Below, piece after piece: positions 11,151 through 44,370 of a DNA stretch of 64,000 bases. Each line of letters begins with the position of its first letter. Position 1 is the first letter of the stretch. A program made the position numbers and the translations under genes. Source of the DNA: Brevundimonas sp. SL130 (GTDB lineage Bacteria; Pseudomonadota; Alphaproteobacteria; Caulobacterales; Caulobacteraceae); NCBI RefSeq assembly GCF_026625805.1, contig NZ_CP113064.1:1674001-1738000 (forward strand). The letters run 5' to 3'. Below the pieces are notes generated by a model. It did no database searches. It was given only the letters and a program-made list of their open reading frames with translations, and had not been told where the DNA came from.

Positions 11151-11171
11151 CCGCTTAGCCGCGGGTCAGGG
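11145..11171. terminator. Bidirectional terminator-like palindrome between gspM and the lactonase gene
   Basis: CCCTGACCGC at 11145-11154 pairs with GCGGGTCAGGG at 11161-11171 (one bulged G) around a TTAGCC loop. The hairpin contains the gspM stop and the stop of the facing gene, which converge with a four-base gap. No long T tract on either side, hence moderate confidence. Confidence 0.55.
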
Positions 11172-12171
11172 TGCACAGTTTCAGCAGCCGGTCGCCCGCC
11201 GTGATGAACAGGGTGCGGCCGTCCTCGCCGAAGGTGCAGTTGGCCGCCGCGCCACCGGTGCGGATCAGTCCCAGCGCCCGGCCGTCGGTCGTCAGGACAT
11301 GAACTCCGCCCGGCCCGGTCACGAACAGATGGCCGTCACGGTCCACGGCCATGCCGTCGGGCAGGCCGGGATTGGCCGGGCCGACCAGATCGGTGAAGTC
11401 CTTCAGCACCCGTCCGCTGGCGGCGATGTCTGATGCGGTCAGGTCATAGGCCATAAGCACGGCGCGCGCCGGGTCCGACACAGCGACATAGAGGGTGCGC
11501 TGATCGGGCGACAGGGCGACGCCGTTGGGGAAGGTCAGGTCGCGGACCAGCAGGGTGACGCCGCCGTCGGGGGCCAGCCGATAGACGCCGTTCTGCGCCT
11601 GCTCCTTCAGCGGCGACTGATCCATGTCCTTCAGCCCATAGGGCGGGTCGGTGAAGACAATCGCGCCGTCTGACGCCTGAACCAGGTCATTGGGCGAGTT
11701 GAACCGCTTGCCCTCGTAGCGGGTCGCCAGCAGGGTCTTGGCCCGCGTGGCCAGATCGACCCGCGCCACGGCGCGGTTGCCGTGGTCCGCCATCAGGATC
11801 GAACCCGCCGGACCGAGGATCAGGCCGTTCGACCCCGGCTCGCGGAAGCCCGAGGCGTCCGGGCCGTCATAGCCGGACGGGTCCATGAAGACCGACGCGC
11901 CGTCCTGTTCTGACCAGCGATGGATGCGGTTGTTCGGCACGTCGCTGAACAGCAGATAGGCGCCCTCTGCGATCCAGACGGGCCCTTCGGACCAGGTGAA
12001 GCCGGACGCCAACGTGTCGATCTGCGCGTCCAGGGCGATCAGCCCGTCCAGCGCCGGATCCAGGCGCACGACGCCGATGGCGGGCGGCGACGCCTTCGCC
12101 TGCGCCAGGGTCGAAAGGCCGGCCGCGCCGGCGACACCGCCGGCGAGAACAAGGCGACGCGAAAGGGGCAA
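11155..12171 (-). CDS. SMP-30/gluconolactonase family lactonase, exported
   Basis: 338 residues. A Tat-like leader (MPLSRRLVLAGGVAGAAGL) is followed by a six-bladed SMP-30 propeller. Family phrases are seen: SGFTWSEGPVWIAEGAYLLF, RFNSPNDLVQASDGAIVFTD, FPNGVALSPDQRTLYVAVSD, LPDGMAVDRDGHLFVTGPGG. The Glu, Asn and Asp residues of the divalent-metal site are in these phrases. Such enzymes open sugar lactones to aldonic acids. It lies 32 bases downstream of a Tat-type Gfo/Idh oxidoreductase, so the two probably oxidise a sugar and open its lactone in the periplasm. The sugar is unknown. It could alternatively serve as a second L-rhamnonolactonase. Confidence 0.85.
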   Translation of the reverse strand: MPLSRRLVLAGGVAGAAGLSTLAQAKASPPAIGVVRLDPALDGLIALDAQIDTLASGFTWSEGPVWIAEGAYLLFSDVPNNRIHRWSEQDGASVFMDPSGYDGPDASGFREPGSNGLILGPAGSILMADHGNRAVARVDLATRAKTLLATRYEGKRFNSPNDLVQASDGAIVFTDPPYGLKDMDQSPLKEQAQNGVYRLAPDGGVTLLVRDLTFPNGVALSPDQRTLYVAVSDPARAVLMAYDLTASDIAASGRVLKDFTDLVGPANPGLPDGMAVDRDGHLFVTGPGGVHVLTTDGRALGLIRTGGAAANCTFGEDGRTLFITAGDRLLKLCTLTRG

Positions 12172-12203
12172 GGCGGATCTCCGAAAGAGGCGAGAGGTCT
12201 GGG

Positions 12204-13313
12204 TCAGAGCGAGACGGCGCGGTTTTCACGCGCGGACAGATATATGGCCTCGATGATCCGCATGTCCCGCAGGCCTTCTTCGCCGGGAACAATGGGCTCG
12301 GCGCCGGTCATGACGCACTGCGACAGATGGTCCAGCTGGGCCGAGAACTGGTTCTGCGGCGCTTCCGGAACGGGGTGGTCCTCGGTGCGCCAGTCCTTGA
12401 GCCGGCGCAGTCGATTGCCCGAATAGGCCGTCGCCGGCTCGGCGTCGACCCAGCCCTTGTCGCCGACCACGCGGAAGCGGTTGTGGTTCGACCCATAGGA
12501 GGAGACGCAGTTGGCCAGGGCGCCCGATGGAAACCGCAGCTGGAAATTGATCATGTCCTCGACCTCGCGGAACTTCGGGTCCGACCGGTCCGTGGATTCT
12601 GTCGCCATCACCTCGACCGGCTCTTCGCCCGTCAGATAGCGCGCGGCCTGGAGGCTGTAGATGCCGATGTCCATCATGGAGCCGCCGCCGGCCAGGGCGC
12701 GGTTCAACCGCCATTGGGTTGGATCGCCGATGGTGAACCCATGCTCGGCCGTGACCACGCGAGGGCGGCCGATCTCACCCGAGCGGGCGATCCGCATGGC
12801 CTCGCGATTGGCCGCTTCGAAATGGCAGCGATAGCCGATCATCAGCTTGCGGCCGGCCGCCCGGCAGGCGGCGATCATCTCTTCGGCCTCGGCCGCCGTA
12901 TTGGCCATCGGCTTTTCGCACATGACGTGCTTGCCGGCGGCGGCGGCGCGCAGGGTGTATTCGTGGTGCATCCCGTTGGGCAGGATCACATAGACGATGT
13001 CCACGTCAGGATTGTCGCGGATCGTGTCGAAGGTCTCGTAGGTATAGAGGCCACGCTCGGGCACGCCGTATTTCGCGGCGTAGCGCCGCGCCTTTTCCGG
13101 CGAACCGCTGACCAGGGCCGTGACGCGCGAATGGCGGCATTCGGCGAAGCGCGGCAGGATGACGTCGGCATAGCCGCCCAGACCGACGATGGCGTAGCCC
13201 AACCGCCGGTCCGTCGCCTGTGCGGCCAGGGCCGAGGCGGGGGCCAGGCCGGCTGCGGCGGCGCCGAGTTTCATCAGGGATCGGCGCGTTGCATTCATGA
13301 TCTTCGGGCTCAT
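12204..13313 (-). CDS. Gfo/Idh/MocA family oxidoreductase, Tat-exported, GFOR-like
   Basis: 369 residues. A twin-arginine leader (NATRRSLMKLGAAAAGLAPA) precedes a Rossmann domain (YAIVGLGGYADVILPRF, about 40-56). The family motif CEKPMANTAAEAEEM lies near 130 and the C-terminal alpha/beta substrate domain holds GGGSMMDIGIYSLQAARYLTG. This arrangement (Tat signal plus tightly bound NADP) is known from Zymomonas glucose-fructose oxidoreductase. It is followed after 32 bases by an SMP-30 lactonase, consistent with a dehydrogenase/lactonase pair. Start taken at 13313; ATG 13298 (MNATRRS) is also possible. The true sugar substrate cannot be read from sequence. Confidence 0.85.
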   Translation of the reverse strand: MSPKIMNATRRSLMKLGAAAAGLAPASALAAQATDRRLGYAIVGLGGYADVILPRFAECRHSRVTALVSGSPEKARRYAAKYGVPERGLYTYETFDTIRDNPDVDIVYVILPNGMHHEYTLRAAAAGKHVMCEKPMANTAAEAEEMIAACRAAGRKLMIGYRCHFEAANREAMRIARSGEIGRPRVVTAEHGFTIGDPTQWRLNRALAGGGSMMDIGIYSLQAARYLTGEEPVEVMATESTDRSDPKFREVEDMINFQLRFPSGALANCVSSYGSNHNRFRVVGDKGWVDAEPATAYSGNRLRRLKDWRTEDHPVPEAPQNQFSAQLDHLSQCVMTGAEPIVPGEEGLRDMRIIEAIYLSARENRAVSL

Positions 13314-13424
13314 TCCACCGGCTGTCGCCGCATCAGGGACGCGGCGACATACTGGACGGCCTCTCCCACGGGGAGCAAGTCACGATCTCGGCGGCCCGAC
13401 GCAGGGCGTGGGCCGCCGAGAGGC

Positions 13425-15509
13425 CTATAGGGCCAGCCGCAGCGAGGCGCGGATGCTGCGCGGCGCGCCGGGGAAGATCCATAGTGCGCTGTACGAGCTG
13501 GCGGCGTAGCGTTCGTCGAACAGGTTGTCGACCTCGACCCGCGCCGTAACCTGGGGCGTGATCCCGTACTCGACCGCCGCCTTGGCCTTCCAATAGGCGG
13601 GCAGGCGCACCCCGTCGGTGGTCAGGGTCGCGGCCCGATCGCCCATATAGGCGGCGCCGGCCGTCATCGACCAATCCGTGCCGTGACCCGTGGCGAAACG
13701 CCCCACCACGAACAGCGAGCCCGAATGTTCCGGCACGTTCAGCACATTGTCGGTGGCGAAGGCGGCGTCGTCGGCCTTGGCGTCGGTCCAGGCATAGTTG
13801 GCGACCACCTGCCAGGCCTCGCCGACCCGCACCGATCCGTCCAGCTCGATCCCCCGCGAGGTCAGCTTGCCGACCGGGGCCAGATAGTTGGAATCGACCG
13901 GGTCGCTGGTCAGGATATTCGCCTTTTCGATGTCGAAGACGGTGGCGGCGACGTCGATGCCGTCCCATGCGCCCGACAGGCCGATCTCGTATCCCTTGCC
14001 CTCTTCCGGGGCGAAGCCGGCGCCGGTCCGGCCCGTGCCTGAGTTCAGGACGAAGGATTCGCCATAGCTGGCGTGGGCCGTCAGGGCGTCGGTCAGGCGA
14101 TAGCGGGCGGCGAAGCGATAATCGATCGGGCTGTCCTTATTCTCCCCCACGGCGCCGGTCAGGTTGTTGCGGATGGTCTGGCTGTAGTCGTCGTAGCGCA
14201 GGCCGGCGACCAGGCTGAGACGGTCGTTCACCTCCCACATGTCCTGAGCGTAGAGGGTGACGACGCTGCGGGTCTCCAGATTATCGGTGAAGGGCAGGGG
14301 CGTCGGCCCGGTCGCGCCATAGACGGGGGTGAAGATATTGATGGCGTAGGGGTTGGCGGCGTTGGGGCTGGCTCGCAGCAGGCGCTCACCATAGGTCAGC
14401 TCATAGGCCTTGACCCCGAAGCCGAGATTATGGACGCCCAGGCCGGCGGCCACCACGCCGTTCAACTCCAGCCGCGCCGACAGGTCTTCGACGGTGTAAT
14501 CGCGCAGCCTGTGCTGGCGCCACAAGGTGTCGCCGACCAGCCTGTTGTGATCGCTGGACAGGCCGCGCAATGAACCACCCCGCCAGGCCACGCCGCCGTT
14601 CAGGCTCCAGTCCGCGTTGATCTGATATTCGCCGGTGATCTGGTGGCGTTCGTTGCGGAACCGGGTCGGGCCGTCGCTGGGCTCGCCATAGTAGTTCGAT
14701 TCCGGCAGGGCCAGGGCGTCGCCGTTGACCGCCGGCATGCCCCGATCAAACAGGGTCGAGAAGACGGTGAACTCGCCCACATAGGTCAGGCGCAGGGCGT
14801 CATTGGGCCGCCAGGTCAGGGACGGGGCGATAGAGGTGCGGTCCAGGCCGACATAGTCGCGCCAGCCCTCGCTGGTCTCGCCCGCCAGCACCAGCCGCCC
14901 GGCCAGGGTGTCAGAGATCGGGCCGGTCACGTCCAGTTCGCCACGCCGCAGGCCGAAGGAGCCGACCGTGCCGGTGAAGACGGCGTCGGTGGTGAACTTC
15001 GGGGTCTTGGAGACGATATTGATCCGGCCGGCCGCGTCGATGTCGCCGAACAGGGCGCCGGCCGGCCCCTTCAGCACCTCGATTCGTTCAGCCGTGGCGG
15101 GGTCGCGTGGCGGCGCCATGCCCCGGTTGGCCAGGAAGCCGTCGACATAATATTCGGCCCCGCCGTCGGGCGTGCCCAGGAAGCCGCGAATGGCGAAATT
15201 GTCCATCACCCCGCCGCGATTGTTCTGCTGGCTGACGCCGCTGACCAGCTCAAGGGCGTCGGACAGGCGGGTGGCCCCGACGGCGTCCAGCAGGTCGCTT
15301 TCGATGGAGCGGCTGGACGGAGACATCCGCTCGGTCACCGCGCCGACGCCCAGGGTGCGGTCGTGCGGGGCCGTGCGACGGCCCAGAACCACGATCTCGC
15401 TAACGGTCGCGGTCTCGCCCGACTCCAGGGGCGGCTCCAAGACGGCAGGGGATTCGGCGTTGGCGGCCGCCAGCAGGCACAGGCTGGCGCAGCTCGAAAG
15501 CAGGGACAC
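13425..15509 (-). CDS. TonB-dependent receptor, siderophore-receptor type
   Basis: 694 residues beginning with a GTG. A short signal peptide (SSCASLCLLAAANAE) is followed by a TonB-box-like stretch (VSEIVVLGRRT). The plug (about 50-190) has the marks FAIRGFLGTPDGGAEYYVDG and RIEVLKGPAGALFGDIDAAG. A beta-barrel follows, ending in RASLRLAL with a C-terminal NLFDERYAASSYS box. The plug resembles ferrichrome/coprogen-type siderophore receptors rather than the long sugar receptors. Yet it sits inside the pectin region, 111 bases before the Gfo/Idh gene and behind its own regulatory region. Substrate therefore uncertain: an iron chelate or a plant-derived ligand. Confidence 0.88.
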   Translation of the reverse strand: MSLLSSCASLCLLAAANAESPAVLEPPLESGETATVSEIVVLGRRTAPHDRTLGVGAVTERMSPSSRSIESDLLDAVGATRLSDALELVSGVSQQNNRGGVMDNFAIRGFLGTPDGGAEYYVDGFLANRGMAPPRDPATAERIEVLKGPAGALFGDIDAAGRINIVSKTPKFTTDAVFTGTVGSFGLRRGELDVTGPISDTLAGRLVLAGETSEGWRDYVGLDRTSIAPSLTWRPNDALRLTYVGEFTVFSTLFDRGMPAVNGDALALPESNYYGEPSDGPTRFRNERHQITGEYQINADWSLNGGVAWRGGSLRGLSSDHNRLVGDTLWRQHRLRDYTVEDLSARLELNGVVAAGLGVHNLGFGVKAYELTYGERLLRASPNAANPYAINIFTPVYGATGPTPLPFTDNLETRSVVTLYAQDMWEVNDRLSLVAGLRYDDYSQTIRNNLTGAVGENKDSPIDYRFAARYRLTDALTAHASYGESFVLNSGTGRTGAGFAPEEGKGYEIGLSGAWDGIDVAATVFDIEKANILTSDPVDSNYLAPVGKLTSRGIELDGSVRVGEAWQVVANYAWTDAKADDAAFATDNVLNVPEHSGSLFVVGRFATGHGTDWSMTAGAAYMGDRAATLTTDGVRLPAYWKAKAAVEYGITPQVTARVEVDNLFDERYAASSYSALWIFPGAPRSIRASLRLAL

Positions 15510-15570
15510 GTGATACTCCGTTGAAACGTTATAATGTATCGGCTATCCGCTTCCGCCTGATGATGTCAAC

Positions 15571-15580
15571 TGTTGCAACA
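15571..15580. promoter_or_regulatory. Palindrome upstream of the 13425-15509 receptor gene, candidate operator
   Basis: TGTTGCAACA is a perfect 10-base palindrome. Widened by four bases each side (CAAC...CTTG) it matches its reverse complement at 16 of 18 positions. On the minus strand it is directly followed by GTTGACA, a good -35, so a repressor bound here would overlap the promoter of the receptor. The rest of 15510-15804 (295 bases) holds no gene that I can support. Confidence 0.45.
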
Positions 15581-15804
15581 CTTGCGCCCGCCTCTGTCGT
15601 CCCGCCCAAACAGGTCCGTTCATCGACTGGTCGCGCTCCCGCCTGTCGTTATCGCCTCTGAATTCTGGCCTCCGGGTCTCGATCCTTATGAGAGCCGGAG
15701 GCTTTGAGGCCGCTGGGCTTCGCCGGCGGGCGCGGCCGTGCGGCGCTGATCAGGTGCCGTTGCACCGTTCTGCGGACGGTCATCCCCCATATGCCGAGTA
15801 CGGC

Positions 15805-16788
15805 TCAGCGGGCGGTGTTCAGAAAACCATCCAGCAACGCCATCCAGGCCGGCCGTCCGCCTGAAGCCGGGTCCGCCAGGCCGTGGCCGCCCTTTTCGAA
15901 CAGATGAAGTTCGCAGGGGAGATTCTGGGCGCGGCACGCCTGCCAGAGGAGAAGGCTGTTTTCGGCGGACACCACGCGGTCGTCCGCTGCGGCCGCGAGA
16001 AAGAGTGGAGGCGCATTCGACGGCACATGGCGCTCGACCGAATAGGCGTCGCGCAGGGTAGCGGGCGGCGTCGTTCCCAACAGGGCCCGCGCCGAGACCT
16101 TATGGGCGTGAGGCTCCATCATCGTCACGACGGGGAACATCAGTCCGGCCGCGTCGGGGCGCGTCGGAAGTCGATCGATCTCGTCGGCGGGGTCATAGGC
16201 GTCCCGATCAAAGGTGGTCGCCAAGCGGCCGGCGACATGGCCCCCGGCCGAAAACCCCGCCACGGCGACGCGGGTCGGATCAAAGCCGAGCTCGTCCGCC
16301 CGCGCCCGAACCATGCGGATCGCGCGCTGGGCGTCCTGAAGCGAAACATCAGGGCCGGCGGCCCATCCGTCGGCCGGGAGGCGATAGTTCATGACGAAGA
16401 CGGTGAAGCCCAGATCGGCCAGGCCGGCGTCTATGGATCCGCCGGCCTTGCTGACGGCCACCCGCTGGTATCCGCCGCCGGGGATCATCAGGATCGCTGC
16501 GCCGTTGGGACGCGCCGGGCGACGCACCGCCAGCCAGGGATCGCGGATGTGCAGATAGGCGGTGTCGTTGGGATCGCCGCCGGGGGTGCGCAGGATGATC
16601 TGTTCCTGGACCGTGACCTGTTCGCCGCCGGGCGCGCCGTTGGGCCAGAGGGGGTGAACCTCCAGACCGGTCTGGGCTGAATGCCGCGCCATATCCTGAG
16701 CGCGGACAGGAAGCGCGGGCGTCAGAGCGGCGCCGGCGGCAAGGCCGAGCAGGGCGCGACGTTCGATCAGAGAGAAAGGTGTCTTCAT
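15805..16788 (-). CDS. Alpha/beta hydrolase, carbohydrate (acetyl) esterase-like, exported
   Basis: 327 residues. N-terminal leader IERRALLGLAAGAALTPALP is Tat-like or Sec-like. The oxyanion region is MIPGGGYQRVAVSK (about 101-114) and the nucleophile elbow is GFSAGGH with S180. An acid region (AAADDRVVSAENSLLLW) and the catalytic His (FEKGGHGLAD) complete the triad. The protein resembles the BD-FAE/acetylxylan esterase type of hydrolase found in plant polysaccharide loci. It lies 16 bases after the GH35 gene in an apparent rhaM-GH35-esterase operon, so it likely removes acetyl (or other acyl) groups from pectin side chains. Exact substrate inferred only. Confidence 0.8.
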   Translation of the reverse strand: MKTPFSLIERRALLGLAAGAALTPALPVRAQDMARHSAQTGLEVHPLWPNGAPGGEQVTVQEQIILRTPGGDPNDTAYLHIRDPWLAVRRPARPNGAAILMIPGGGYQRVAVSKAGGSIDAGLADLGFTVFVMNYRLPADGWAAGPDVSLQDAQRAIRMVRARADELGFDPTRVAVAGFSAGGHVAGRLATTFDRDAYDPADEIDRLPTRPDAAGLMFPVVTMMEPHAHKVSARALLGTTPPATLRDAYSVERHVPSNAPPLFLAAAADDRVVSAENSLLLWQACRAQNLPCELHLFEKGGHGLADPASGGRPAWMALLDGFLNTAR

Positions 16789-16804
16789 CTAAATCAGTCC
16801 CCGC

Positions 16805-19795
16805 TCACTGGGCCTGGGCGCGGGTGGTGACGTCCACTCCGCCCCGCACGTTTCGCAAGGTCACCAGCCGCACATCTTCCAGCACATTGCCCGGCGCGCC
16901 GTCGGTGGAGACCACCAGGGCGATGCTGTTCTGGCCGCGATGATTCAAGATGTGTTCGGGCAGGGAGAAGACCCGTTGCGGACCGACGTTGGCGATGAAC
17001 TGGCCCATATGCCATCCATTGACGAAGATCAGCACCCGGTAGGCCCGGTCGGATCGGGGCGTGTCCGTATCGCCGAAGGCAAGGCCGATTGAGGCGTCCT
17101 GGCCCGCCGGAACGTCCAGATCGAAGCGCGTCCGGTACCAGGTCACACCCGGCTGGAGGGGCTCGCCGACCAGGCCGGGTCGCCAATCCCCATCCTTGAA
17201 TTCGGGCAGGTGCCAGCCGTGGCGTTCCCCGAACAGGCCGCCATTGTTGGGCACGCCGCGAAGCGTGTCGGCGAAATCCTCGCCTCCGGCGCGGCCCTGG
17301 ATCTTCCACGATATCGGCACGGCGAAGCCGGGACCGACACGCGGCGCGACCGAAACCGACACCAGACCGCGCGCCTCCTTGTGGAAGTCGTTGGCGTCCA
17401 GATTCCAGTTGTGGCCGTTGTTGCGGACCATCACCGACACGACATGAGGTCCGGGCGTGCGGGCCGCCTCGGGCAGATCGAAGGCCGCGACGCCGGTGGT
17501 GATCGGGCGGGGGATGCCGCTGGGCAGTTCGTGTTGCCCCACAAAGACGCCGTCGAGGAAGACCTGCGCCATGCCTGCGCCGCCCGCGCCATAGAAGAGG
17601 TTGATCGTCTCGGCCTCAGGCCCGCCCTCGAACCGGCCGCGATACCAGACGTCGCCCTCGTGGAAGCCATAGGCGTCCATCAGCATATTGGGCTGACCGT
17701 CCGGCCGCAGGGTGTTGCTGGCGTAAGGACGGCTGTCGATGGCTTGCCAGTCGCTGTCGTCGAACTCGGGGCGGGCCTCGGGCGATTCCGGGGCGACACG
17801 CCAGTCGCTTAAGACGGGCAGGGCGAAGGCCGTCGGCCCGGCCAGGGGCGTCCGGGCCTCTAGGCTGCCTGACGCGGTGGCGCGGGTGGCGACGGCGGCG
17901 CCGTTCCACAGGACCGACGACGTCGGGGCCGTCGACCAGATTTCCAAGGGCGTGGGCTCGCGCGTGTCCCCGGTCAGCAGCAGCCGTCCGCGCTCGGTCC
18001 GGGCATGTCGCACCAGGGCCGGGCCGCGCACCAGGACATCGCCTTGGCGCCAGAACCGTACGGCTTCCTTCTCTTCTCCGATCAGCAGCAGCAGATCAGG
18101 CCGACCGCCGCCGCTGATCCGCACGCGGCTGAGCCCAATGTGATCATAGTCGAGCTTCAGATCGCCGCGCGCCGGGTCGAACGTCGAACGCACATCGCCG
18201 TCCAGCACTGTTACGTCGGGTTGCGAGGAGAAGCGAAGAATGGTCTCGCCCGGCTCCTGCTTGCGCCCATACATAAGCAGGACGTCCTGTTGGGCTGTCG
18301 GCAAGACCGCCTGCAATTCCGACGTTGAATAGACCAGTCTCTGGCCCGCCAGATCGACCCCGGCCACCAGCCATTTGGCGTCGAAACCGTTCAGGGTCAT
18401 GGGCATGACGTAGCGCCCGTCGGGCAGGTCGGCCGTAACGGTGAACTGGTCGTTGGTCTGGCCGTTCGACGGCTTGTGCGTCACCAGCAGGAAGCGGGCG
18501 TCCGTCTCCGGGCTGCGGTTGTGATAGACTTGGATATTGGGCGATGAGATCGCCGGGACGCCCGCCGGGACCATGCCGGCCAGGTCGGGGACTGAGGCGA
18601 TCAGGCCCGCGAGCTGCTTCATCTCCTCGGCCTTGGGCCGCAGCTCGCGCGTCTCCGAGATCGCTGCGCCATAGTCATAGCTGGTGAAGACGACCGGCGC
18701 CGCCAGCCATCCCCAGCTGGTCCCCCCGAATCCGACATAGATGCTCTGCAACGAGATGCCGTTGGCCAGGTTGACGCCGTAGAAGACGCGCTGGAAACGC
18801 TCGCCGCGTTGAACGGCGTTGCACTCATAGCCGCCGTTGGATCCCCAATAGTCGAACCAGCCGCCGCCGATCTCGGCCATGAAGCCCGGCGTCGCCGGAG
18901 ACGCCGAGGCGCCCCCCTTGGCGCCGCCCGGACCATAGAAGCCCCAGTCAGGCGCTGCGGCGCCGCGCGTCGTGCGGCCCTGGACGGTGCAGGTGCCGCC
19001 GGGATAGCCGTCGAAAGCGTACAGATCGACCGGTCCGGGAACGACCTTGTCCACCGGGGAATCTTCGGGCGTCCAGTAGCCGTTGCGGCCCTGGTCGTTA
19101 TGGAAGATGGGCACGTTGACGCCGTCCGCCCGCGCCTTGGCGTACAGATGGTCCATATAGCGGCGGTGGGCCGGGGTGGTGGCCGCCAGCTCGTTCTCGA
19201 TCTGATAGAGGATGACCGATCCCTGGTTGCCCCTGCCGTCGCCGTTGATCTGGTGGCGAGCGATGATGGCGTTGACCTGGGTCAGCCATTCGTCGGCGGC
19301 GGCGAGATATTCGGGCGAGTCCGTTCGGGACGGCGCGCGCTGGTTGACCAGCCATCCGGGGAAGCCCCCGCGCGTCAGTTCGGCGTTGGCGTAGGGGCCG
19401 GGCCGGACGATGACATAGAGGCCCTCTTCTGCGGACATCTGTAGCAACCGATCCAGGTCGCGGATGCCGGTGAAGTCGTAAACCCCCTGTTTTGGGCTGT
19501 GGTAGCCCCAGTCGAAATAGAAGGCGACGGTGTTGAATCCGCTGGCCTTCATCTTCTGTAGGATGTCCCGCCACAGTTCCGGGCTGGGCAGGCGGAACGG
19601 GTGCATTTCGCTGGACCAGATCACCAGCCGCTCGCCGTCGATCATCAGGGATCGGGCGTCGAACGAGACGCGGCCGAAGGTCTGAGCCGGCGCGGTGAAG
19701 TCGGCCGTGGCGCGGGCCTCTTGCGCCGTGACGGGCGCCGAAGACAGGAGGGGGGCGGCGGCCACGGCGGCCGCGAACAACAGGGCGCGGCGCAT
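16805..19795 (-). CDS. GH35 beta-galactosidase, large multi-domain, exported
   Basis: 996 residues from ATG 19795, whose first bases overlap the rhaM stop (ATGA). A signal peptide (MRRALLFAAAVAAAPLLSSA) precedes the GH35 TIM barrel (about 40-380). The acid/base Glu is in ILYQIENELAA and the nucleophile Glu in FMAEIGGGWFDYWGSNGGYE. YVGFGGTSWGWLAAPVVFTSYDYG is typical of the family (quoted in part). Beta-sandwich and jelly-roll domains follow (about 400-1000), giving the roughly 1000-residue domain order best known from fungal LacA-type enzymes. Expected role: trimming galactose or galactan side chains of rhamnogalacturonan-I. An upstream in-frame ATG at 19828 lies inside rhaM and is not preferred. 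Confidence 0.92.
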   Translation of the reverse strand: MRRALLFAAAVAAAPLLSSAPVTAQEARATADFTAPAQTFGRVSFDARSLMIDGERLVIWSSEMHPFRLPSPELWRDILQKMKASGFNTVAFYFDWGYHSPKQGVYDFTGIRDLDRLLQMSAEEGLYVIVRPGPYANAELTRGGFPGWLVNQRAPSRTDSPEYLAAADEWLTQVNAIIARHQINGDGRGNQGSVILYQIENELAATTPAHRRYMDHLYAKARADGVNVPIFHNDQGRNGYWTPEDSPVDKVVPGPVDLYAFDGYPGGTCTVQGRTTRGAAAPDWGFYGPGGAKGGASASPATPGFMAEIGGGWFDYWGSNGGYECNAVQRGERFQRVFYGVNLANGISLQSIYVGFGGTSWGWLAAPVVFTSYDYGAAISETRELRPKAEEMKQLAGLIASVPDLAGMVPAGVPAISSPNIQVYHNRSPETDARFLLVTHKPSNGQTNDQFTVTADLPDGRYVMPMTLNGFDAKWLVAGVDLAGQRLVYSTSELQAVLPTAQQDVLLMYGRKQEPGETILRFSSQPDVTVLDGDVRSTFDPARGDLKLDYDHIGLSRVRISGGGRPDLLLLIGEEKEAVRFWRQGDVLVRGPALVRHARTERGRLLLTGDTREPTPLEIWSTAPTSSVLWNGAAVATRATASGSLEARTPLAGPTAFALPVLSDWRVAPESPEARPEFDDSDWQAIDSRPYASNTLRPDGQPNMLMDAYGFHEGDVWYRGRFEGGPEAETINLFYGAGGAGMAQVFLDGVFVGQHELPSGIPRPITTGVAAFDLPEAARTPGPHVVSVMVRNNGHNWNLDANDFHKEARGLVSVSVAPRVGPGFAVPISWKIQGRAGGEDFADTLRGVPNNGGLFGERHGWHLPEFKDGDWRPGLVGEPLQPGVTWYRTRFDLDVPAGQDASIGLAFGDTDTPRSDRAYRVLIFVNGWHMGQFIANVGPQRVFSLPEHILNHRGQNSIALVVSTDGAPGNVLEDVRLVTLRNVRGGVDVTTRAQAQ

Positions 19796-20112: not shown

Positions 20113-20213
20113 GAATCCTCCAGACCGATTATTCGGTACATTATTTCACTATGTGGTAACTCGCTTCGATCGGGGGGTCAAACCTCAAGGCGGCGGCGAT
20201 GCGTCGCGGGCCT

Positions 20214-21431: not shown

Positions 21432-21487
21432 GGGGTAGGCTCCAGATCAGCTTGGGGGTGTTTCGATCCGCGTTAAGGCCGCGCGGT

Positions 21488-31025: not shown

Positions 31026-31073
31026 AGTTTTGAGTTCTGACGCCAGCGTCAGTTCGGGCGGACGGAGCATTCC

Positions 31074-33812: not shown

Positions 33813-33823
33813 AGACAGTGCGG

Positions 33824-33845: not shown

Positions 33846-33855
33846 TCGCCCCCGT

Positions 33856-34758: not shown

Positions 34759-34768
34759 GCGTCGGACC

Positions 34769-36363: not shown

Positions 36364-36380
36364 GGGTGAGGTCTTTCGTC

Positions 36381-37574: not shown

Positions 37575-37603
37575 CGACGCACCGTAGAAATTGGGCGATA
37601 GTT

Positions 37604-37714: not shown

Positions 37715-38521
37715 ATGGGACGAGTGGCGTCAATCAAGACCGCGCAGGTCGATGGGGAAGAAGAGGTCGGCGCCAAGGCGTCCGGCAGCCAAACCCTGCT
37801 GCGCGGGCTGGACGTGATCGAAGCCCTTATCGATGGGCCGATGCCTCTGGCCGAACTGTCCGAAAAGCTGGAACTCACCCGCAGCACCACCCACCGTCTG
37901 GCCTCGGCCCTGGTCGATCGTCGCCTGCTGTCGTTCCGCCCGCGCGAGGGCTACAGCCTGGGTCCGAAGCTGCTGGAACTGGGCCATGCCGCCAGCCAGC
38001 AGATGCACCTGCCGCGTGTCGCCCGCCCCTGGCTGGAACAGTTGTCGGACCAGACCCAGGATACGGTTCATCTGGGCGTCCTCGACGGCCGTCACGCCCT
38101 CTACCTGGACAAGGTCGCGGGCCGGCGGCGGATCAATATCGGCTCTCGTCTGGGCGAGCGGCATCCCATCGCTTCCACGGGGCTGGGCAAGGCGTTGATC
38201 CTCGACATGTCCGAGCCTGAGTGGATCGACTTTTATGCGACGGAGGGGGTTGCGTTCGACTCGGCCGCGCGCGCCGTCTGGCTGGAGCGGATGCGCAGCT
38301 ATGCCGAAAAGGGATACGCCTTCGATCTAGAAGAGAACGAGGATCAGATCCGTTGCGTGGCCGCGCCGGTTCGCTCTGTCGATGGGCGAATTGTCGCCGC
38401 GCTGAGCGTTTCATCGGCCGCCCAGTACATGTCCGACGAGCGGATGACGGAACTGACCCGCACCGTGACCGACGCCGCCAACGCCATCAGCGCCGATCTC
38501 GGCTGGCTGCCCAAACGTTGA
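37715..38521 (+). CDS. IclR-family transcriptional regulator, probable rhamnose/pectin regulator
   Basis: 268 residues from ATG 37715 (GAGG seven bases upstream); the frame is open from a TTG at 37676 but that is less likely. The winged helix-turn-helix is ETLELTRSTTHRLASALV-like (MPLAELSEKLELTRSTTHRL, about 40-75). The IclR effector domain (about 95-265) contains HLGVLDGRHALYLDKVAG, PIASTGLGKALILDMS, GYAFDLEENEDQIRCVAAPV and AALSVSSAAQYMS. It heads a rightward unit with L-rhamnose dehydrogenase and lldD and faces rhmD, so it most likely senses L-rhamnonate, KDR or a related acid. Repressor or activator is not decided. Confidence 0.92.
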   Translation: MGRVASIKTAQVDGEEEVGAKASGSQTLLRGLDVIEALIDGPMPLAELSEKLELTRSTTHRLASALVDRRLLSFRPREGYSLGPKLLELGHAASQQMHLPRVARPWLEQLSDQTQDTVHLGVLDGRHALYLDKVAGRRRINIGSRLGERHPIASTGLGKALILDMSEPEWIDFYATEGVAFDSAARAVWLERMRSYAEKGYAFDLEENEDQIRCVAAPVRSVDGRIVAALSVSSAAQYMSDERMTELTRTVTDAANAISADLGWLPKR

Positions 38522-38544: not shown

Positions 38545-39306
38545 ATGCTGCTTGAAGACAAGGTCGTCCTGATCACGGGCGCATCGCGGGGCATAGGCAG
38601 GGCGACGGCGGTGGAAGCCGCACGTCAGGGCGCCGACGTTGCGATCAACACCTATCGCGACGCTGACGCCGCCGCCGAAGTGATCGCCCAGGTCGAGGCC
38701 CTGGGCCGTAGGGCCGTCGCCATCGATGGGGATGTGGCCCTGCCGGAAAGCGCGACCGCCTTTGTCAGCGAGGCGGTCAGGGCCTTGGGCCGGGTCGACG
38801 TCTTCGTCTCCAATGCCGGCATCTGTCCGTTCCACGCCTTCCTCGACATGCCGGTCGAGACCCTGCGCCGCACGATGGAGGTCAATCTGCACGGGGCCTA
38901 TTTCATGGTCCAGGCGGCGGCCAACCAGATGGTGAAACAGGGGGAGGGCGGCGCCATCGTCGCCATCAGCTCCATCTCCGCCTTGGTGGGCGGCGAGATG
39001 CAGACCCACTACACGCCGACCAAGGCCGGGGTTCACAGCCTGATGCAATCCTGCGCCGTCGCCCTGGGCCGGCACGGGATCCGCTGCAATTCGGTTCTGC
39101 CGGGAACGATCGCTACGGACATCAACAAGGACGACCTCGCCGATCCGGCCAAACGCGAATACATGGAGGGCCGTATCCCCTTGGGGCGGCTGGGACGCCC
39201 TGAGGACATCGCTTCGGTCGTCGCCTTCCTGGCCTCTGACATGGCGTCCTATATGTCCGGCGCGGCCCTGCTGGTCGACGGCGGCGCCTTCGCCAACTTC
39301 CAGTAG
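38545..39306 (+). CDS. L-rhamnose 1-dehydrogenase, SDR family
   Basis: 253 residues. Cofactor motif TGASRGIGRATAVEAARQG (about 11-29), then VSNAGICPFHAFLDMPVETL, SSISALVGGEMQTHYTPTKAG with catalytic Ser/Tyr/Lys, and VLPGTIATDINKDDL. These blocks agree closely with the Azotobacter vinelandii/Sphingomonas L-rhamnose dehydrogenases I remember, more so than with generic FabG. It oxidises L-rhamnose to L-rhamnono-1,4-lactone using NAD(P), the first step of the non-phosphorylating route. It lies 23 bases after iclR and nine bases before lldD. Confidence 0.9.
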   Translation: MLLEDKVVLITGASRGIGRATAVEAARQGADVAINTYRDADAAAEVIAQVEALGRRAVAIDGDVALPESATAFVSEAVRALGRVDVFVSNAGICPFHAFLDMPVETLRRTMEVNLHGAYFMVQAAANQMVKQGEGGAIVAISSISALVGGEMQTHYTPTKAGVHSLMQSCAVALGRHGIRCNSVLPGTIATDINKDDLADPAKREYMEGRIPLGRLGRPEDIASVVAFLASDMASYMSGAALLVDGGAFANFQ

Positions 39307-39315: not shown

Positions 39316-40449
39316 GTGATCATTTCCTCGCCGAGCGACTATCGCGAAGCCGCGCGCCGCAAGCTGCCGCCTTTCCTGTTCCACTACATCGACGGCGGCG
39401 CCTATGCCGAACAGACGCTGCGCCGCAATGTCGAGGATTGGCAGGCCATCGCCCTGCGGCAGCGGGTGTTGCAGGACATGTCGAGCCTCGATCTCGAGAC
39501 CCGTCTGTTCGACGAGACCCTGCGCCTGCCGATCATATTGGCGCCCGTCGGCCTGACCGGCATGTACGCTCGACGCGGCGAGGTTCAGGCGGCCAAGGCC
39601 GCGGCCTCTCGCGGCCTGCCCTTCACCCTGTCCACCGTCTCGGTCTGCCCGATCGAGGAGGTGGCGCCGGCCATCGACCGGCCCATGTGGTTCCAGCTCT
39701 ATGTGCTGCGCGACCGTGGCTTCATGAAGAATGCGCTGGAACGCGCCAAGGCGGCGGGGGTCAAGACCCTGGTCTTCACCGTCGACATGCCCACGCCCGG
39801 CGCCCGCTATCGCGACGCCCATTCGGGCATGAGCGGCCCCCATGCCGAGATGCGCCGAATGATCCAGGCCATGACCCATCCCGCCTGGGCCTGGGACGTC
39901 GGGGTGCGCGGCACGCCGCACGACCTGGGCAATGTCTCGGCCTATCTGGGCAAGCCGACGGGCCTGGCGGACTATATCGGCTGGCTGGGCCAGAATTTCG
40001 ATCCGTCCATCTCCTGGAAGGATCTTCAGTGGATCCGCGACTTCTGGGACGGGCCCATGATCATCAAGGGCGTGCTGGATGCTCAAGACGCCCGTGACGC
40101 CGTCAGCTTCGGCGCCGACGGCATCGTCGTGTCGAACCACGGCGGGCGTCAGTTGGACGGGGTGTTGTCCTCGGCGCGGGCGCTTCCCGCCATCGCCGAG
40201 GCGGTGAAGGGCGATATCCGCATCCTGGTCGATTCCGGCATTCGCAACGGGCTGGACGTGATCCGCGCCATCGCCCTGGGCGCCGACGCGGTCATGCTGG
40301 GCCGCGCCTTCATCTACGCCCTTGCGGCGGGCGGCCAGGCCGGCGTCGAAAACCTGCTCGATCTGTTCGAGAAGGAGATGCGGGTGGCCATGACCCTGAC
40401 CGGGGCTAAGTCGGTCCAGGGCGTCAGTCGCGATATGTTGGCGATCTGA
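39316..40449 (+). CDS. lldD: L-lactate dehydrogenase, FMN-dependent, membrane-associated
   Basis: 377 residues starting with GTG ([20 protein letters not shown]). The whole sequence reads like E. coli Lld[61 protein letters not shown], and [20 protein letters not shown] with the catalytic His (parts quoted). It oxidises L-lactate to pyruvate, passing electrons to quinones. In this operon the L-lactate is best explained as the product of the FAH-family rhamnose hydrolase. Ends 22 bases before the stop of the converging SGNH gene. Confidence 0.96.
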
Positions 40450-40455
40450 TCCCTG

Positions 40456-40485
40456 CCTAACGAAACTGGGCCTAACGAAACAGGG
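40456..40485. repeat. Two 15-base tandem units across the SGNH gene stop
   Basis: CCTAACGAAACTGGG is followed at once by CCTAACGAAACAGGG, identical at 14 of 15 positions. The second unit contains the TAG stop of the minus-strand SGNH gene, so the duplication supplies a second in-phase stop. CCCTG at 40451 and CAGGG at 40481 can also form a hairpin between lldD and this gene. Confidence 0.75.
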
Positions 40486-41686
40486 TCAGATCGATCGCAT
40501 CCGCCATCGCCTTGAAGCCCGCGTCGTTGGGATGAAGGCGATCACCACTGTCATAGACAGACGCCAGATGGCCGGGGTTTTCGCGGTCGCGCATGACCGC
40601 ATCGAAGTCGATCACGCCATCTGCTTCGCCGCCGCTGCGAATCCAGGTGTTGACCGCCTGCCGGACGGCCTCGCCCGGTTCCGACCAGTAGTTGGCGCCC
40701 TCATAGGGCAGGATGGTCGCCAGAAACACCCGCAGGCCGCGCGCATGGGCGCGTGTGATCATCTGCCGATATCCGGCGATCAGGTCGGCGGCTGTCGGCG
40801 GGTGCGGGTCCTTGTCCCGCCAGGCCATGCCTATGTCGTTGACCCCCTCCAGGATGATCACATCGGTGACGCCGGGAACCGCCAGGACGTCGCGATCAAA
40901 ACGCGCCAAGGCCGCGACGCCCAGTCCGGGACGCGGATTGAGGATGCGATTGCCCGAGATCCCGGCATTGGCGACCGCCACCTCGGTCAGCCCGGCCGCC
41001 TGAAGCCGTCCCGCCAGCAGATCGGGCCATCGGCGATCTGCATTTCGGGTCCCGTTCGCGCCGTCGGTGATGGAGTCGCCTAGGGCGACGACGATGCGGC
41101 CGGGGCGTGGCCGTTCCACATCCACGCCGGACAGCAGAATGCGCTGGGTGGTGGAAACGGCGTCGGTCAGTTCAGCCGCAGAGGTCTGATCCCCGGGACT
41201 GACCCAGCTCGTCGCCAGGCCGAGCAGATGGATCGTCGGCTGCGGCGCGTCCTCCGGCAGATAAAGGCTGACCGTCAGGCGCGACAGCGCCGGCAGGTGG
41301 AGATCCACCGGATCACTGAGGATCGGCGCGCCGGCCGGCAACAAGGCGTCAGGCCGGCCGTCGAAGACCACATCCCGTTCTGACCCGGCCACCGGGCGTC
41401 CATCGTCGCCCATCAGGAAGACCGTCGCGCGTCCGAGGCGCATCGGCGTGTCTCCGAACTCGTTGGACAGCCGCAGACGAAATCTTTCTCCGCCCAGGCT
41501 GATGCGGATGGTTTGCCGGATGGTGGCGTTCTTCAGGGACGGAGGCATCCGGTCGGCGGTCGCCGCAAGCGGGGCTGCGTACCAGCTGCGCGCCCAGTGC
41601 TGTTGCGGCGCTGTTTGCTGCGCCCAGGCCGGGCCGGTGACGAGCGTCGCCAGGATGGAAAGGAATGCGACGATGAAATAGTTCAT
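40472..41686 (-). CDS. SGNH/GDSL hydrolase, exported esterase
   Basis: 404 residues. Signal peptide MNYFIVAFLSILATLVTGPAWA. An N-terminal beta-rich region (about 25-195: WARSWYAAPLAATADRMPPS; IRISLGGERFRLRLSNEFG) precedes the SGNH domain. Blocks are VALGDSITDGANGT (Ser nucleophile), NAGISGNRIL (Gly), LEGVNDIG (Asn) and SGDRLHPNDAGFKAM (Asp/His). This layout is common in GDSL esterases of plant polysaccharide loci. It lies 24 bases after a DUF6250-like gene and belongs to the PL11 unit, suggesting it deacylates rhamnogalacturonan fragments outside the cytoplasm. Exact ester unknown. Confidence 0.87.
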   Translation of the reverse strand: MNYFIVAFLSILATLVTGPAWAQQTAPQQHWARSWYAAPLAATADRMPPSLKNATIRQTIRISLGGERFRLRLSNEFGDTPMRLGRATVFLMGDDGRPVAGSERDVVFDGRPDALLPAGAPILSDPVDLHLPALSRLTVSLYLPEDAPQPTIHLLGLATSWVSPGDQTSAAELTDAVSTTQRILLSGVDVERPRPGRIVVALGDSITDGANGTRNADRRWPDLLAGRLQAAGLTEVAVANAGISGNRILNPRPGLGVAALARFDRDVLAVPGVTDVIILEGVNDIGMAWRDKDPHPPTAADLIAGYRQMITRAHARGLRVFLATILPYEGANYWSEPGEAVRQAVNTWIRSGGEADGVIDFDAVMRDRENPGHLASVYDSGDRLHPNDAGFKAMADAIDLTLFR

Positions 41687-41710: not shown

Positions 41711-42457
41711 CTAACCGGCGAACGACCGGACTTCGAAGTCGCGCACGACCATGTGGTTGAAGGTGGTGCGCAGACCGAACCAGCCCTCGCGATAGGGCTG
41801 AGGGTCGTTCAGGGCGAACATCCGTCGGTCGTCACGCCAATATTCGATGCGTTCGCCCGCCGCGATCAGGCGGACCCGATACGGCCGGTTCGGCGCAATC
41901 AGATCCTCGGGCGCGCCCAGGTCGTGGACCGGGAGCAGGGGCCGCTCGCCATTGCCGACGTAACGACGGAAACGAGACGTCGTATTGCCGTTGCCGCCGA
42001 GGCCGACATAATAGGTCCGCAACAGATCGTAGTCGGCAAAGGCGCCCGAGCGCGGGCGGGCGATCAGGTCCGTGGCGCTGCGCGGATCGGTCGCCATCCA
42101 GAAGCAGTTGAGGTCGCTGACCCTGTCGTTGGGGCCTCCCGCCGACACGGCTTGAACGGTAAAGCTGATTTCGACCGGCGAAGTCAGTCGTGGCCGAAAC
42201 CAGGCGGTGGCGCCGCGCGGGGTGTCGAACCGCATCGCGCCGTCGGCGGCCGAAACCTCGCCCAGTCCGTCCTCCCGTTCGATCAGCCAGGACGCCAGAC
42301 CCTGTCGAAAGTCGTCGGCATAAAGCCGCCGGCGGACGCTGGCGGCAGTCAAAGACAGGGGGGCGGAAGACGGGGTCGCGCAGGCGGCGAGACCCACGCT
42401 CGCAACCCCGAGTCCGGCGCCGCCGCAAAGGGCGTCTCGTCTCGACCACGCCCTCAT
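41711..42457 (-). CDS. DUF6250-like lipoprotein of the rhamnogalacturonan lyase unit
   Basis: 248 residues. A twin-arginine leader (AWSRRDALCGGAGLG) ends in a lipobox LAAC at C26, so it should be a Tat-exported lipoprotein. The rest is a jelly-roll/concanavalin-like domain with many Trp, Tyr and Arg: DDFRQGLASWLIEREDG, LNCFWMATDPRS, LLRTYYVGLGGNGNTTSRFR, GWFGLRTTFNHMVVRDFEV. I associate this pattern with DUF6250/YesU-type proteins found next to rhamnogalacturonan lyases. No catalytic residues are established. It overlaps the PL11 stop by four bases (ATGA), so its expression is tied to the lyase. Confidence 0.75.
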   Translation of the reverse strand: MRAWSRRDALCGGAGLGVASVGLAACATPSSAPLSLTAASVRRRLYADDFRQGLASWLIEREDGLGEVSAADGAMRFDTPRGATAWFRPRLTSPVEISFTVQAVSAGGPNDRVSDLNCFWMATDPRSATDLIARPRSGAFADYDLLRTYYVGLGGNGNTTSRFRRYVGNGERPLLPVHDLGAPEDLIAPNRPYRVRLIAAGERIEYWRDDRRMFALNDPQPYREGWFGLRTTFNHMVVRDFEVRSFAG

Positions 42458-44370
42458 TGACCCGCCTTCAGGTCCGTTTCGGGGGCGAAGCTGGGGTGTG
42501 AGGGCTGATTATAGGCCGAGTTCTGACCCGACACCTGCGACCGATACTGGGCGTCGTGCATCAGGGTCGTGTGGCGGATCGTGGTGGGGTAGGGGGTGAC
42601 ATAGATCCGCAGGGCCGAGCTATCCTCGGTTCGCAGGACCACCTCCTCGCGCCAGTCGCCCAGAATGTCCGCCGCCAGCACCGGCGTGGCCTTTGTCCCG
42701 TTGTTCGAGGCCGCGCCTTCCGCGACCAGCAGAGGTGTGGACGCCTGGTTGGCCCAGTCCCATTTGAAGATCCGCACGCCGTCCAGCAGTTCGCGTTGGG
42801 CGTCGCCGTCCCACCAGACGGCGAAATTGACCTGGGCCGGCCGCGTGTGGGCGATCACGCGGCCGTCGGCCGCATACAGGTCCGTGCTGTTGCTGGCCCA
42901 GGCTTCGGCGCCGGGGTGGCGCGGATCGATATCGGCGGCGACCCCGCGTCCCACATCCCGATCGGACCCCGTGCGCCACAGGACTTCGCCGGAACGGGCG
43001 TCGACCATGGCGCTGCCGACGCCGCCGTTGCCGCGCATGTCTTCGTGTACGCCGAATTTTTCCAGGCCAGGACGAGCCGGGTCCAGATCGCCGACGTGCA
43101 TGGCGTCGCCGTGGCCCAGTTCGGTCGTCCACATCGGCGCGCCGTCGTCGTCGATGGCCATCGCGCCATAGAGGATCTCTTGCCGACCGTCGGCGTCCAG
43201 ATCGGCGACGCTGAACTGATGATTGCCCTGGCCGGCGAACCCCTTCGGGGCGGTGTCGCTGTCGAAGGTCCAGCGCTGTTGCAAGCGGCCGTCGCGCCAG
43301 TCCCAGGCGGCGATCACCGTGCGGGCGTAGTAGCCGCGCGCCATGATGATGCTGGGCAGGCGTCCGTCCAGAAAGGCCGTGCCGCCCAGATACCGCTCAG
43401 ACCGGTTGCCGTAGCCGTCGCCCCAAAGGGCGGCCATTTCTGCGGAGGAGGGGGTATCCGTCCCTTGTCCCCGCGACGGGACATAGGGAGCGCTGGCCAG
43501 GGCGCGTCCCGTGGCGCCGTCGAAGACGGTCAGATATTCCGGGCCGGAGAGGATGCGGCCGGTCAAGGGCGCGGTCAGGCTGCCGTCCGGTTTCCGCTCG
43601 GCGCCGGTCCTGTCCCGGCTGGCGATTTCGCCGCCCTTTTCGCGCCAGTCGGCGGTGGGGTCGCCCAGCGCCAGGCCGATCCCGTCCACTGTTCCGTCGG
43701 CCGTTTTCAAGGCCAGTTCCGCTCGACCGTCCCCGTCGAAGTCCTGAACCGCCATCTGGGTATAGTGGGCGCCGGAGCGGATATTGCTGCCCAGGTCGAT
43801 CCGCCAAAGCCGGCGGCCGTCCAGCCTATAGGCGTCGATCAGCGTCGGACCGGTATAGCCGGCGAAGGCGTTGTCCTTGGCGTTGGTCGGCGCCCACTTC
43901 AGGATGATTTCGTAACGGCCGTCGCCGTCCAGATCGCCGACCGACCCATCATTGGCGTCATACTCATAGGCCACGCCATCTGGCGTGACCCCGCCGTTCG
44001 GGCGATCCAGGGGTATCGTCAGATAGCCCTCGGTGAGGTTGAGGCCTGGAACCGGCGCGTTGCTCCCTACCGCCTTGATCGCGTAGCGAGCGTTCAACCC
44101 GCCTTCCGTATCAAGCCAGTTGGTCGCGGTGGACACCGGGCGGGGCGTGATCCTGCGTCCGTCTCTATAGACGTCGAAGCCCTGGTCTGACGGATCGGCG
44201 GCGCTCAATCGCCAATGGATAAGAACGCCGCCGTTCTGCGCCGGCACAACGACCGCCGCCCTGTCCAGAGCGTCTTGCACAGCCGATACGGGTTCACAGA
44301 ACCCCGCAAGAGGCCAAACCAAGACCGAAGCTCCCGCCAAGGCGGCGCCTGCCCATCTGAAACAATCCAT
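42454..44370 (-). CDS. PL11 rhamnogalacturonan endolyase (YesW-like)
   Basis: 638 residues. Signal peptide (about 1-25, LAGASVLVWPLAGFC). An N-terminal Fn3-like domain (VLIHWRLSAADPSDQGFDVYR, part) precedes an eight-bladed propeller. Calcium-binding repeats include GSVGDLDGDGRYEIILKW, VQDFDGDGRAELALKTADG and FSVADLDADGRQEILYG. AYEYDANDGSVGDLDG and KWAPTNAKDN are PL11 hallmarks. It cuts the galacturonate-rhamnose backbone of rhamnogalacturonan-I by beta-elimination. Start ATG 44370 with an AGCTGAGGA ribosome site. First gene of PL11-DUF6250-SGNH. Confidence 0.94.
   Translation of the reverse strand: MDCFRWAGAALAGASVLVWPLAGFCEPVSAVQDALDRAAVVVPAQNGGVLIHWRLSAADPSDQGFDVYRDGRRITPRPVSTATNWLDTEGGLNARYAIKAVGSNAPVPGLNLTEGYLTIPLDRPNGGVTPDGVAYEYDANDGSVGDLDGDGRYEIILKWAPTNAKDNAFAGYTGPTLIDAYRLDGRRLWRIDLGSNIRSGAHYTQMAVQDFDGDGRAELALKTADGTVDGIGLALGDPTADWREKGGEIASRDRTGAERKPDGSLTAPLTGRILSGPEYLTVFDGATGRALASAPYVPSRGQGTDTPSSAEMAALWGDGYGNRSERYLGGTAFLDGRLPSIIMARGYYARTVIAAWDWRDGRLQQRWTFDSDTAPKGFAGQGNHQFSVADLDADGRQEILYGAMAIDDDGAPMWTTELGHGDAMHVGDLDPARPGLEKFGVHEDMRGNGGVGSAMVDARSGEVLWRTGSDRDVGRGVAADIDPRHPGAEAWASNSTDLYAADGRVIAHTRPAQVNFAVWWDGDAQRELLDGVRIFKWDWANQASTPLLVAEGAASNNGTKATPVLAADILGDWREEVVLRTEDSSALRIYVTPYPTTIRHTTLMHDAQYRSQVSGQNSAYNQPSHPSFAPETDLKAGQ

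Follow-up and report, generated by a model that had tools for sequence, protein, structure and literature searches.

In the Bacteroidetes, polysaccharide utilisation loci (PULs) for rhamnogalacturonan-I (RG-I) bring together co-located carbohydrate enzymes, an outer-membrane receptor and a regulator. A block that resembles them lies in the window analysed here, a 64,000-nucleotide stretch (bases 1,674,001-1,738,000) of the 3.50-Mb single-contig genome of Brevundimonas sp. SL130. On the basis of gene families and edge comparison, this RG-I unit, hereafter the cassette, runs from window position 15,805 to 44,370 and comprises 21 genes in 28.6 kb. Its products are predicted to convert the RG-I polymer to pyruvate. 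The block has quite probably moved as one unit among Brevundimonas and would have arrived here within about 33.5 kb of DNA inserted beside a tRNA-Lys gene. Its predicted enzymes support well a unit for RG-I utilisation, the general kind of which is known, and there is good evidence for a discrete, likely transferable cassette. What is unusual is the combination of PL11 and PL26, both rhamnogalacturonan lyase families, with two catabolic branches leading to pyruvate.

In Erwinia and Dickeya, according to PMC3870299, RhiT imports unsaturated rhamnogalacturonide and RhiN releases L-rhamnose in the cytoplasm. Like rhiTN together with rhiE, the cassette encodes a rhamnogalacturonan lyase, a transporter and a probably cytoplasmic hydrolase. 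Unlike that system, it has PL26, a non-phosphorylated diketo route for rhamnose and an IclR-type regulator rather than RhaS, and a single block unites its genes from polymer to pyruvate with that of a TonB receptor. With the known diketo-hydrolase L-rhamnose pathway it has in common the genes for Lra1, L-rhamnonate dehydratase, a short-chain dehydrogenase/reductase (SDR) and the diketo hydrolase, but here they stand among RG-I genes and are joined by genes for a mutarotase and LldD. Among the yes/yte RG-I genes of Bacillus subtilis, YesW and YesX are matched by the cassette PL11, and YesU by the fold modelled for the cassette protein DUF6250; yesU adjoins yesW in that genome. In contrast to B. 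subtilis, the cassette GH105 is far from YteR (83 bits, versus 554 bits to 3pmm), and PL26 and TonB import are present. The cassette also differs from a Bacteroidetes PUL, since its TonB receptor is not part of a SusC/SusD pair, no SusD family being found among the scanned open reading frames (ORFs) of the locus, and since an inner-membrane symporter would feed a cytoplasmic hydrolase. No title or abstract opening describing such a locus was found in literature searches combining rhamnogalacturonan with Caulobacter, Brevundimonas, Sphingomonads, TonB, PUL, PL26/PL11/GH105 or rhamnonate dehydratase, with most subscription journals outside their coverage.

If the cassette does travel in this way, related bacteria of soil and water can pass on a complex trait, the use of a branched pectin polymer, in a single compact piece. 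A broader proposal has two parts: that the cassette is a naturally transferable polymer-to-pyruvate unit which, though it has no integrase of its own, confers complete RG-I catabolism on a recipient at a single stroke, and that the DUF6250 lipoprotein belongs to an undescribed carbohydrate-active family with the YesU fold, acting beside polysaccharide lyases across phyla. The two together are put forward tentatively, their joint chance falling somewhat below even.

The genes are arranged in groups of alternating strand. Read from right to left, the minus strand carries kduI, kduD, kdgK, the CE12-type GDSL esterase, rhaM, GH35 and the PaeX-like esterase. The plus strand then carries GH105, the GPH symporter, the TonB receptor and PL26, followed on the minus strand by L-rhamnonate dehydratase, the FAH hydrolase, the SDR and Amidohydrolase_2, on the plus strand by iclR, Lra1 and lldD, and on the minus strand by PL11, DUF6250 and the second GDSL esterase. 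Family and structure matches were sought in Pfam, NCBIfam and the PDB sequences, the choice of library varying from gene to gene.

15,805-16,788 (-): PaeX-like alpha/beta esterase with a twin-arginine-type signal at its N-terminus; BD-FAE 67.8 bits, PaeX model 261 bits against a cut-off of 550
16,805-19,795 (-): GH35, beta-galactosidase family, exported; Glyco_hydro_35 260 bits; its start at 19,795 overlaps the rhaM stop by one base
19,795-20,112 (-): RhaM, L-rhamnose mutarotase, 105 amino acids; PF05336 96.6 bits
20,214-21,431 (-): GDSL esterase, CE12-type; Lipase_GDSL_2; 2o14 (YxiM) 83.6 bits, 1deo (rhamnogalacturonan acetylesterase) 45.3 bits
21,488-22,531 (-): KdgK-type PfkB sugar kinase; PfkB; 2afb 184.7 bits
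22,774-23,532 (-): KduD; TIGR01832 405 bits, over cut-off
23,555-24,400 (-): KduI; NF002091 394.5 bits, over cut-off
24,655-25,791 (+): GH105, no evident export signal; Glyco_hydro_88 350.6 bits, 3pmm 553.7 bits, YteR 83.4 bits; BglB model over cut-off
25,819-27,450 (+): GPH-type sugar symporter; MFS_2 154.9 bits
27,843-30,974 (+): TonB receptor of the Xanthomonas-Caulobacter type; TIGR01782 575 bits, over cut-off
31,074-33,812 (+): PL26 exo-rhamnogalacturonan lyase with a twin-arginine-type signal; PcRGLX domains; 5xq3 738.5 bits
33,856-34,758 (-), start approximate: Amidohydrolase_2, likely L-rhamnono-lactonase; PF04909; FuconLaconase below cut-off; 4dlf 54 bits
34,769-35,518 (-), start approximate: SDR, likely 2-keto-3-deoxy-L-rhamnonate dehydrogenase by context; adh_short
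35,515-36,363 (-): FAH-type 2,4-didehydro-3-deoxy-L-rhamnonate hydrolase; NF053535 504.1 bits against a cut-off of 500, a narrow pass
36,381-37,574 (-): L-rhamnonate dehydratase; PRK15440 750.5 bits, over cut-off
37,715-38,521 (+), start possibly 37,676: IclR-family regulator; IclR_C 122.5 bits; KdgR model below cut-off
38,545-39,306 (+): Lra1, L-rhamnose 1-dehydrogenase; NF053807 460.4 bits, over cut-off
39,316-40,449 (+): LldD, L-lactate dehydrogenase; NF033901 762.9 bits, over cut-off
40,472-41,686 (-): second GDSL/SGNH esterase, exported; Lipase_GDSL_2 103.5 bits, 9kr0 273.6 bits
41,711-42,457 (-): DUF6250 protein with a twin-arginine- and lipobox-like start; PF19763 217.8 bits; YesU-like fold in a structure model
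42,454-44,370 (-): PL11 rhamnogalacturonan lyase; RGL11_C 723 bits, 4cag 662.7 bits

From these families a complete route can be proposed, in which substrates, compartments and regulation are predicted. The polymer would be stripped and cut by the exported esterases, GH35 and the PL11 lyase. Its fragments would enter the periplasm through the TonB receptor, and PL26 would trim them to the disaccharide of unsaturated galacturonic acid and rhamnose (GalA-Rha). PL26 matches PcRGLX along its whole length (738 bits) and hence should release unsaturated GalA-Rha. The GPH symporter would import this disaccharide, to be split by GH105, which is likely cytoplasmic and acts after GPH import, given that it has no evident export signal and that, among solved structures, 3pmm and 3qwt are closest to it. 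The uronate half would pass through KduI, KduD and KdgK to 2-keto-3-deoxy-6-phosphogluconate (KDPG), to be cleaved by an aldolase encoded elsewhere; two matches to the KDPG aldolase family lie elsewhere in the genome. The rhamnose half would be converted by RhaM, Lra1, the lactonase, L-rhamnonate dehydratase, the SDR and the FAH hydrolase to pyruvate and L-lactate, and LldD, whose gene is next to that of Lra1, would turn the L-lactate into pyruvate. Judged by its enzymes, this branch is the non-phosphorylated diketo-hydrolase route: L-rhamnose dehydrogenase, L-rhamnonate dehydratase and the diketo hydrolase all exceed their NCBIfam cut-offs, the hydrolase narrowly, while the roles of Amidohydrolase_2 as lactonase and of the SDR as 2-keto-3-deoxyrhamnonate dehydrogenase are likely, by position only. 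The uronate branch would consume NADH (KduD) and the rhamnose branch produce it (Lra1, SDR), which may be a reason for keeping the two together. The likely regulator of the unit is the IclR protein. The palindrome TGAGAC-NNN-GTCTCA or variants of it occur upstream of PL11 in six genomes.

A first-pass annotation, made from the sequence alone, had already placed a uronate and a rhamnose branch at one locus, and the gene families support this reading. It had also listed PL11, PL26, GH35 and GH105, each of which family or structure matches confirm, as well as a CE12 acetylesterase, found here as one GDSL esterase with CE12-type matches, and two further esterases, which correspond to the PaeX-like protein (below that model's cut-off) and the second GDSL protein. 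Its remark that SusD is lacking agrees with the scan, and the cytoplasmic hydrolysis of imported units that it predicted fits a GH105 that lacks an evident export signal, with added support from the mutarotase. Other items stood in part. The GPH symporter is over the cut-off of Pfam MFS_2 and below that of the NCBIfam gph model. In kduI-kduD-kdgK, KduI and KduD exceed NCBIfam cut-offs and the kinase is of the 2-keto-3-deoxygluconate type, with no NCBIfam model over its cut-off. The "full" L-rhamnose route holds for Lra1, L-rhamnonate dehydratase, the diketo hydrolase and LldD, all over NCBIfam cut-offs, with the lactonase and SDR placed by context. Absent from that annotation were DUF6250, the passing of the BglB cut-off by GH105, the L-rhamnose mutarotase gene, which was noticed on reading the DNA between the GH35 and esterase genes and then confirmed with Pfam, and the fact that the genes form a discrete block with different neighbours in different genomes.

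PL26 is found in 58 of 299 sampled Caulobacteraceae genomes, the window's own included. In 20 of these genomes (seven of the same genus, 13 of other genera), about 20 kb to either side of PL26 was compared, and Brevundimonas sp. EYE_349 (G314) was added. Six other Brevundimonas genomes, namely G122, G155, Brevundimonas sp. SH203 (G192), G240, B. intermedia VKM B-1499 (G243) and G314, have a match to every one of the 21 genes, with identities of at least 68 %. In the comparison of gene order that the first-pass annotation had called for, the order of the window is kept in five of the six, and in B. intermedia within each of two contigs, whose ends cut KdgK and KduD. One extra esterase-like match lies between the lactonase and SDR genes in G122, G155 and G240. 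Rearranged subsets of the cassette genes occur in B. variabilis (G246) and in G135 of the same genus. Among the 13 stretches from other genera, that of G172 has GH105, GPH and the genes of the rhamnose route in the vicinity of PL26, and in that of G017 PL26 is split in two and accompanied by Lra1, LldD, PL11, DUF6250, GH35 and an esterase; the remaining 11 give no KduI, GH105, FAH or L-rhamnonate dehydratase match.

The edges and flanks of the cassette and a gene remnant at one junction, like the families and order of its genes, are directly visible in the DNA. Alignments with the window cover 15,841-44,049 in G122, 15,844-44,055 in G192, 15,877-44,040 in G314, and 15,872-21,850 and 22,967-44,433 in G243, so that across these carriers similarity begins at 15,841-15,877 and stops at 44,040-44,433. 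No further alignment of at least 300 bases was found outside the cassette between the window and these four stretches; short matches there link G122 with G192 (455 bases) and G314 with G240 (551 bases). In all ten pairs of five genomes, coverage of the flanks is only 0.00-0.09 over 10 kb to each side, or 7.4 kb for two of the right flanks, compared with 0.45-0.97 and 0.64-0.91 for control regions of 20 kb around recA and rpoB in the same genomes (10 pairs each). The cassette thus has the differing chromosomal surroundings and sharp common edges of a genomic island, and the same gene order with differing neighbours in seven species indicates that it likely moved between genomes as one unit.

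In the window, the site of arrival can be compared with that in B. intermedia, as contig C11 of that genome carries both flanks 1.45 kb apart (window 5,365-15,621 and 49,115-54,891). Between them lies a 412-amino-acid gene of the HGSNAT family (HGSNAT_cat 55.8 bits), a remnant of which is preserved at the left junction. The features of the site are as follows.

15,622-49,114 (no strand): likely insertion of about 33.5 kb, a stretch to which nothing corresponds at the B. intermedia site
15,557-15,621 (+): remnant of the 412-amino-acid gene, about 21 codons from an inner ATG, identified by alignment and reading; the gene is broken off at 15,621
49,122-49,197 (-): tRNA-Lys bordering the stretch on the right; similarity to B. 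intermedia resumes 7 bases before the tRNA 3' end

The part of this stretch between the cassette and tRNA-Lys (44,551-48,272) encodes a FhuE/FauA-like siderophore receptor and a PepSY_TM protein.

Identity within the cassette speaks for transfer in some carriers. It clearly exceeds that of the two control regions for G122-G192 (92.0 versus 82.9 and 86.0 %) and for G122-G240 (89.7 versus 83.0 and 86.1 %), which indicates transfer for these genomes. The alternative is that the cassette was inherited vertically in Brevundimonas and lost from most species, its neighbours differing only through chromosome rearrangement. The presence of PL26 in only 11 of 131 Brevundimonas genomes could indeed reflect loss, and a number of findings weigh against transfer. 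For G192-G240 the excess is bare (92.1 versus 91.6 and 88.3 %). Seven of the ten pairs have no excess over both controls: G122-G155, G192-G155 and G240-G155, for which the G155 control regions align over about half only, raising their identity, and all four pairs with the window (80.3-80.5 versus 82.0-91.0 %), so that the case for transfer into the window rests on the insertion site. There, no integrase or transposase was seen among the scanned ORFs of the stretch (150 amino acids or longer), the two edges share no direct repeat of 11 bases or more, and the tRNA end has no second copy; searches for a tRNA attachment repeat and for notable repeats at the edges were likewise negative. The exact right edge is uncertain because the DNA past tRNA-Lys differs in G155 too, and the FhuE-like receptor and PepSY genes have no match in the other cassette stretches. 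Rearrangement alone, however, would have to account for flanks that are not kept although the surroundings of recA and rpoB are, for the excess identity in two pairs and for the broken gene at the junction, and vertical inheritance is therefore considered unlikely. Movement of the cassette as a unit remains the preferred explanation, with mixed histories for its pieces, since identity between the window and B. intermedia varies from 72 to 98 % in 1-kb pieces and is close in places.

The predicted function and extent of the unit also have competitors. With 491 bits against a cut-off of 420, GH105 also qualifies under the NCBIfam model for beta-galactosidase BglB, a point that counts against the proposed route and would allow GH105 to act mainly on side chains, the disaccharide being split by something else. 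But its nearest solved relatives are GH105 proteins, it has no evident export signal, its gene sits with GPH and PL26, and GH35 is at hand for galactose, which makes this very unlikely. The search for a shared IclR operator did not bring one to light: a profile built from six 15-base sites scored only the PL11 site highly in the window (20.6; the next, at 10.3, lies outside the cassette), and the motif was set aside as a common operator. KduI, KduD and KdgK also serve the degradation of homogalacturonan, and the locus might be a general pectin locus with that polymer as main substrate. Both lyases nevertheless belong to rhamnogalacturonan lyase families, nine of the 21 genes are either rhamnose-route genes or the two lyases, and no GH28 was found in the genome by a search that was positive in the Caulobacter vibrioides control, pectate lyase families elsewhere in the genome not being part of it; a homogalacturonan locus is accordingly judged highly improbable. 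As to extent, the first-pass annotation had drawn a unit of about 33 kb (11,155-44,370), of which the right part (15,805-44,370) stands and the left 4.4 kb (11,155-15,509), separate in B. intermedia, falls away. The three genes concerned are not part of the unit.

11,155-12,171 (-): lactonase
12,204-13,313 (-): aldose-aldose oxidoreductase (AAOR); 5a02 503 bits
13,425-15,509 (-): siderophore-type TonB receptor

If the larger unit were right, these proteins would work with the RG-I genes by oxidising side-chain sugars in the periplasm. The three genes are adjacent here, lie beside GH35 and have export-type N-termini, and the role of AAOR is called unclear in PMC4628093. The same source describes an AAOR gene beside that of an exported lactonase in Caulobacter (CC1225-CC1224); here a TonB receptor comes next. 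However, contig C11 of B. intermedia keeps the order type II secretion genes, lactonase, AAOR and receptor, apart from its RG-I genes on contigs C3 and C7. AAOR occurs in 17 of the 131 Brevundimonas genomes and coincides with PL26 in only three (G000, G243 and G337), and none of the three left genes has a match in the cassette stretches of G122, G155, G192, G240 and G314. A periplasmic side-chain oxidation module was rejected on this distribution and the B. intermedia layout, and the larger unit has only the slightest chance of being correct. Of the two TonB receptors noted at first, both exist and one is inside the unit, so that the import system reduces to that receptor and the inner-membrane symporter, without the left one. 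The adjoining type II secretion genes were ruled out as a dedicated export system, since in G243 and G321 it is the AAOR block that they accompany.

The least understood part of the cassette is DUF6250, for which no paper was found under that name. Its structure model has a concanavalin-like fold and matches 1oq1 with 18 % identity in the structural alignment; 1oq1 is YesU, according to PMC6120924. The other matches among 50 Foldseek/VIA-align rows are to concanavalin-like lectins and glucanases of many sorts, with no lyase family prominent, which excludes nothing. A profile search of PDB sequences gave only a chance lysozyme match (E 0.4) and no match to YesU. Neighbours were surveyed by tblastn (at least 70 bits) for the best 80 of at least 594 relatives, three of which are Brevundimonas copies of the cassette, with several loci ending at contig ends. 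PL11 or PL26 was matched in 38 of these 80 loci, and 48 had a match to at least one of eight core genes. The other 42 loci yielded 138 neighbouring ORFs, and among the 74 nearest, which were scanned, MFS_1 is the commonest family (4), followed by chondroitinase-B type (3), PL8 (3), KDPG aldolase (3), PL4 domains (2) and PL22 (2). These counts rule out that DUF6250 is exclusive to RG-I and imply that it accompanies several kinds of lyase, many of the 80 loci having no adjoining lyase in view. Because this unexplained family lies next to lyases for RG-I and other polysaccharides, its function is open to direct test.

Several further observations concern the cassette and its surroundings. The segment from PL26 to L-rhamnonate dehydratase (31,000-37,600) is 95-97 % identical to B. 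intermedia, and the DNA on both sides is 80-92 % identical, a mosaic that suggests recombination within the cassette. A dispersed palindromic repeat with the core GAGGATCCATACTCCCGGTG occurs in the window at 22,675-22,739, 61,117-61,179 and 62,261-62,280, with five matches at up to three mismatches where none is expected. Its copy between kdgK and kduD coincides with the break in the B. intermedia assembly; a similar element is present in G192 and not in G122, G240 or G155. Near the cassette in G155, at about 1.5 kb, is a piece of an IS4/5-type transposase, and nine other flanking ORFs scanned in four genomes gave no match to a mobility family. To the right of the insertion site, 54,998-55,833 encodes a HigB-like toxin with a helix-turn-helix partner downstream, likely a toxin-antitoxin pair, and 58,890-61,061 is a single ORF with DinB_2, FGE-sulfatase and histidine-specific methyltransferase domains, a set also found in ergothioneine/ovothiol-type synthases. 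About 24 kb past the window end, at genome positions 1,761,842-1,762,822, lies a GH78-type rhamnosidase domain over its family cut-off.

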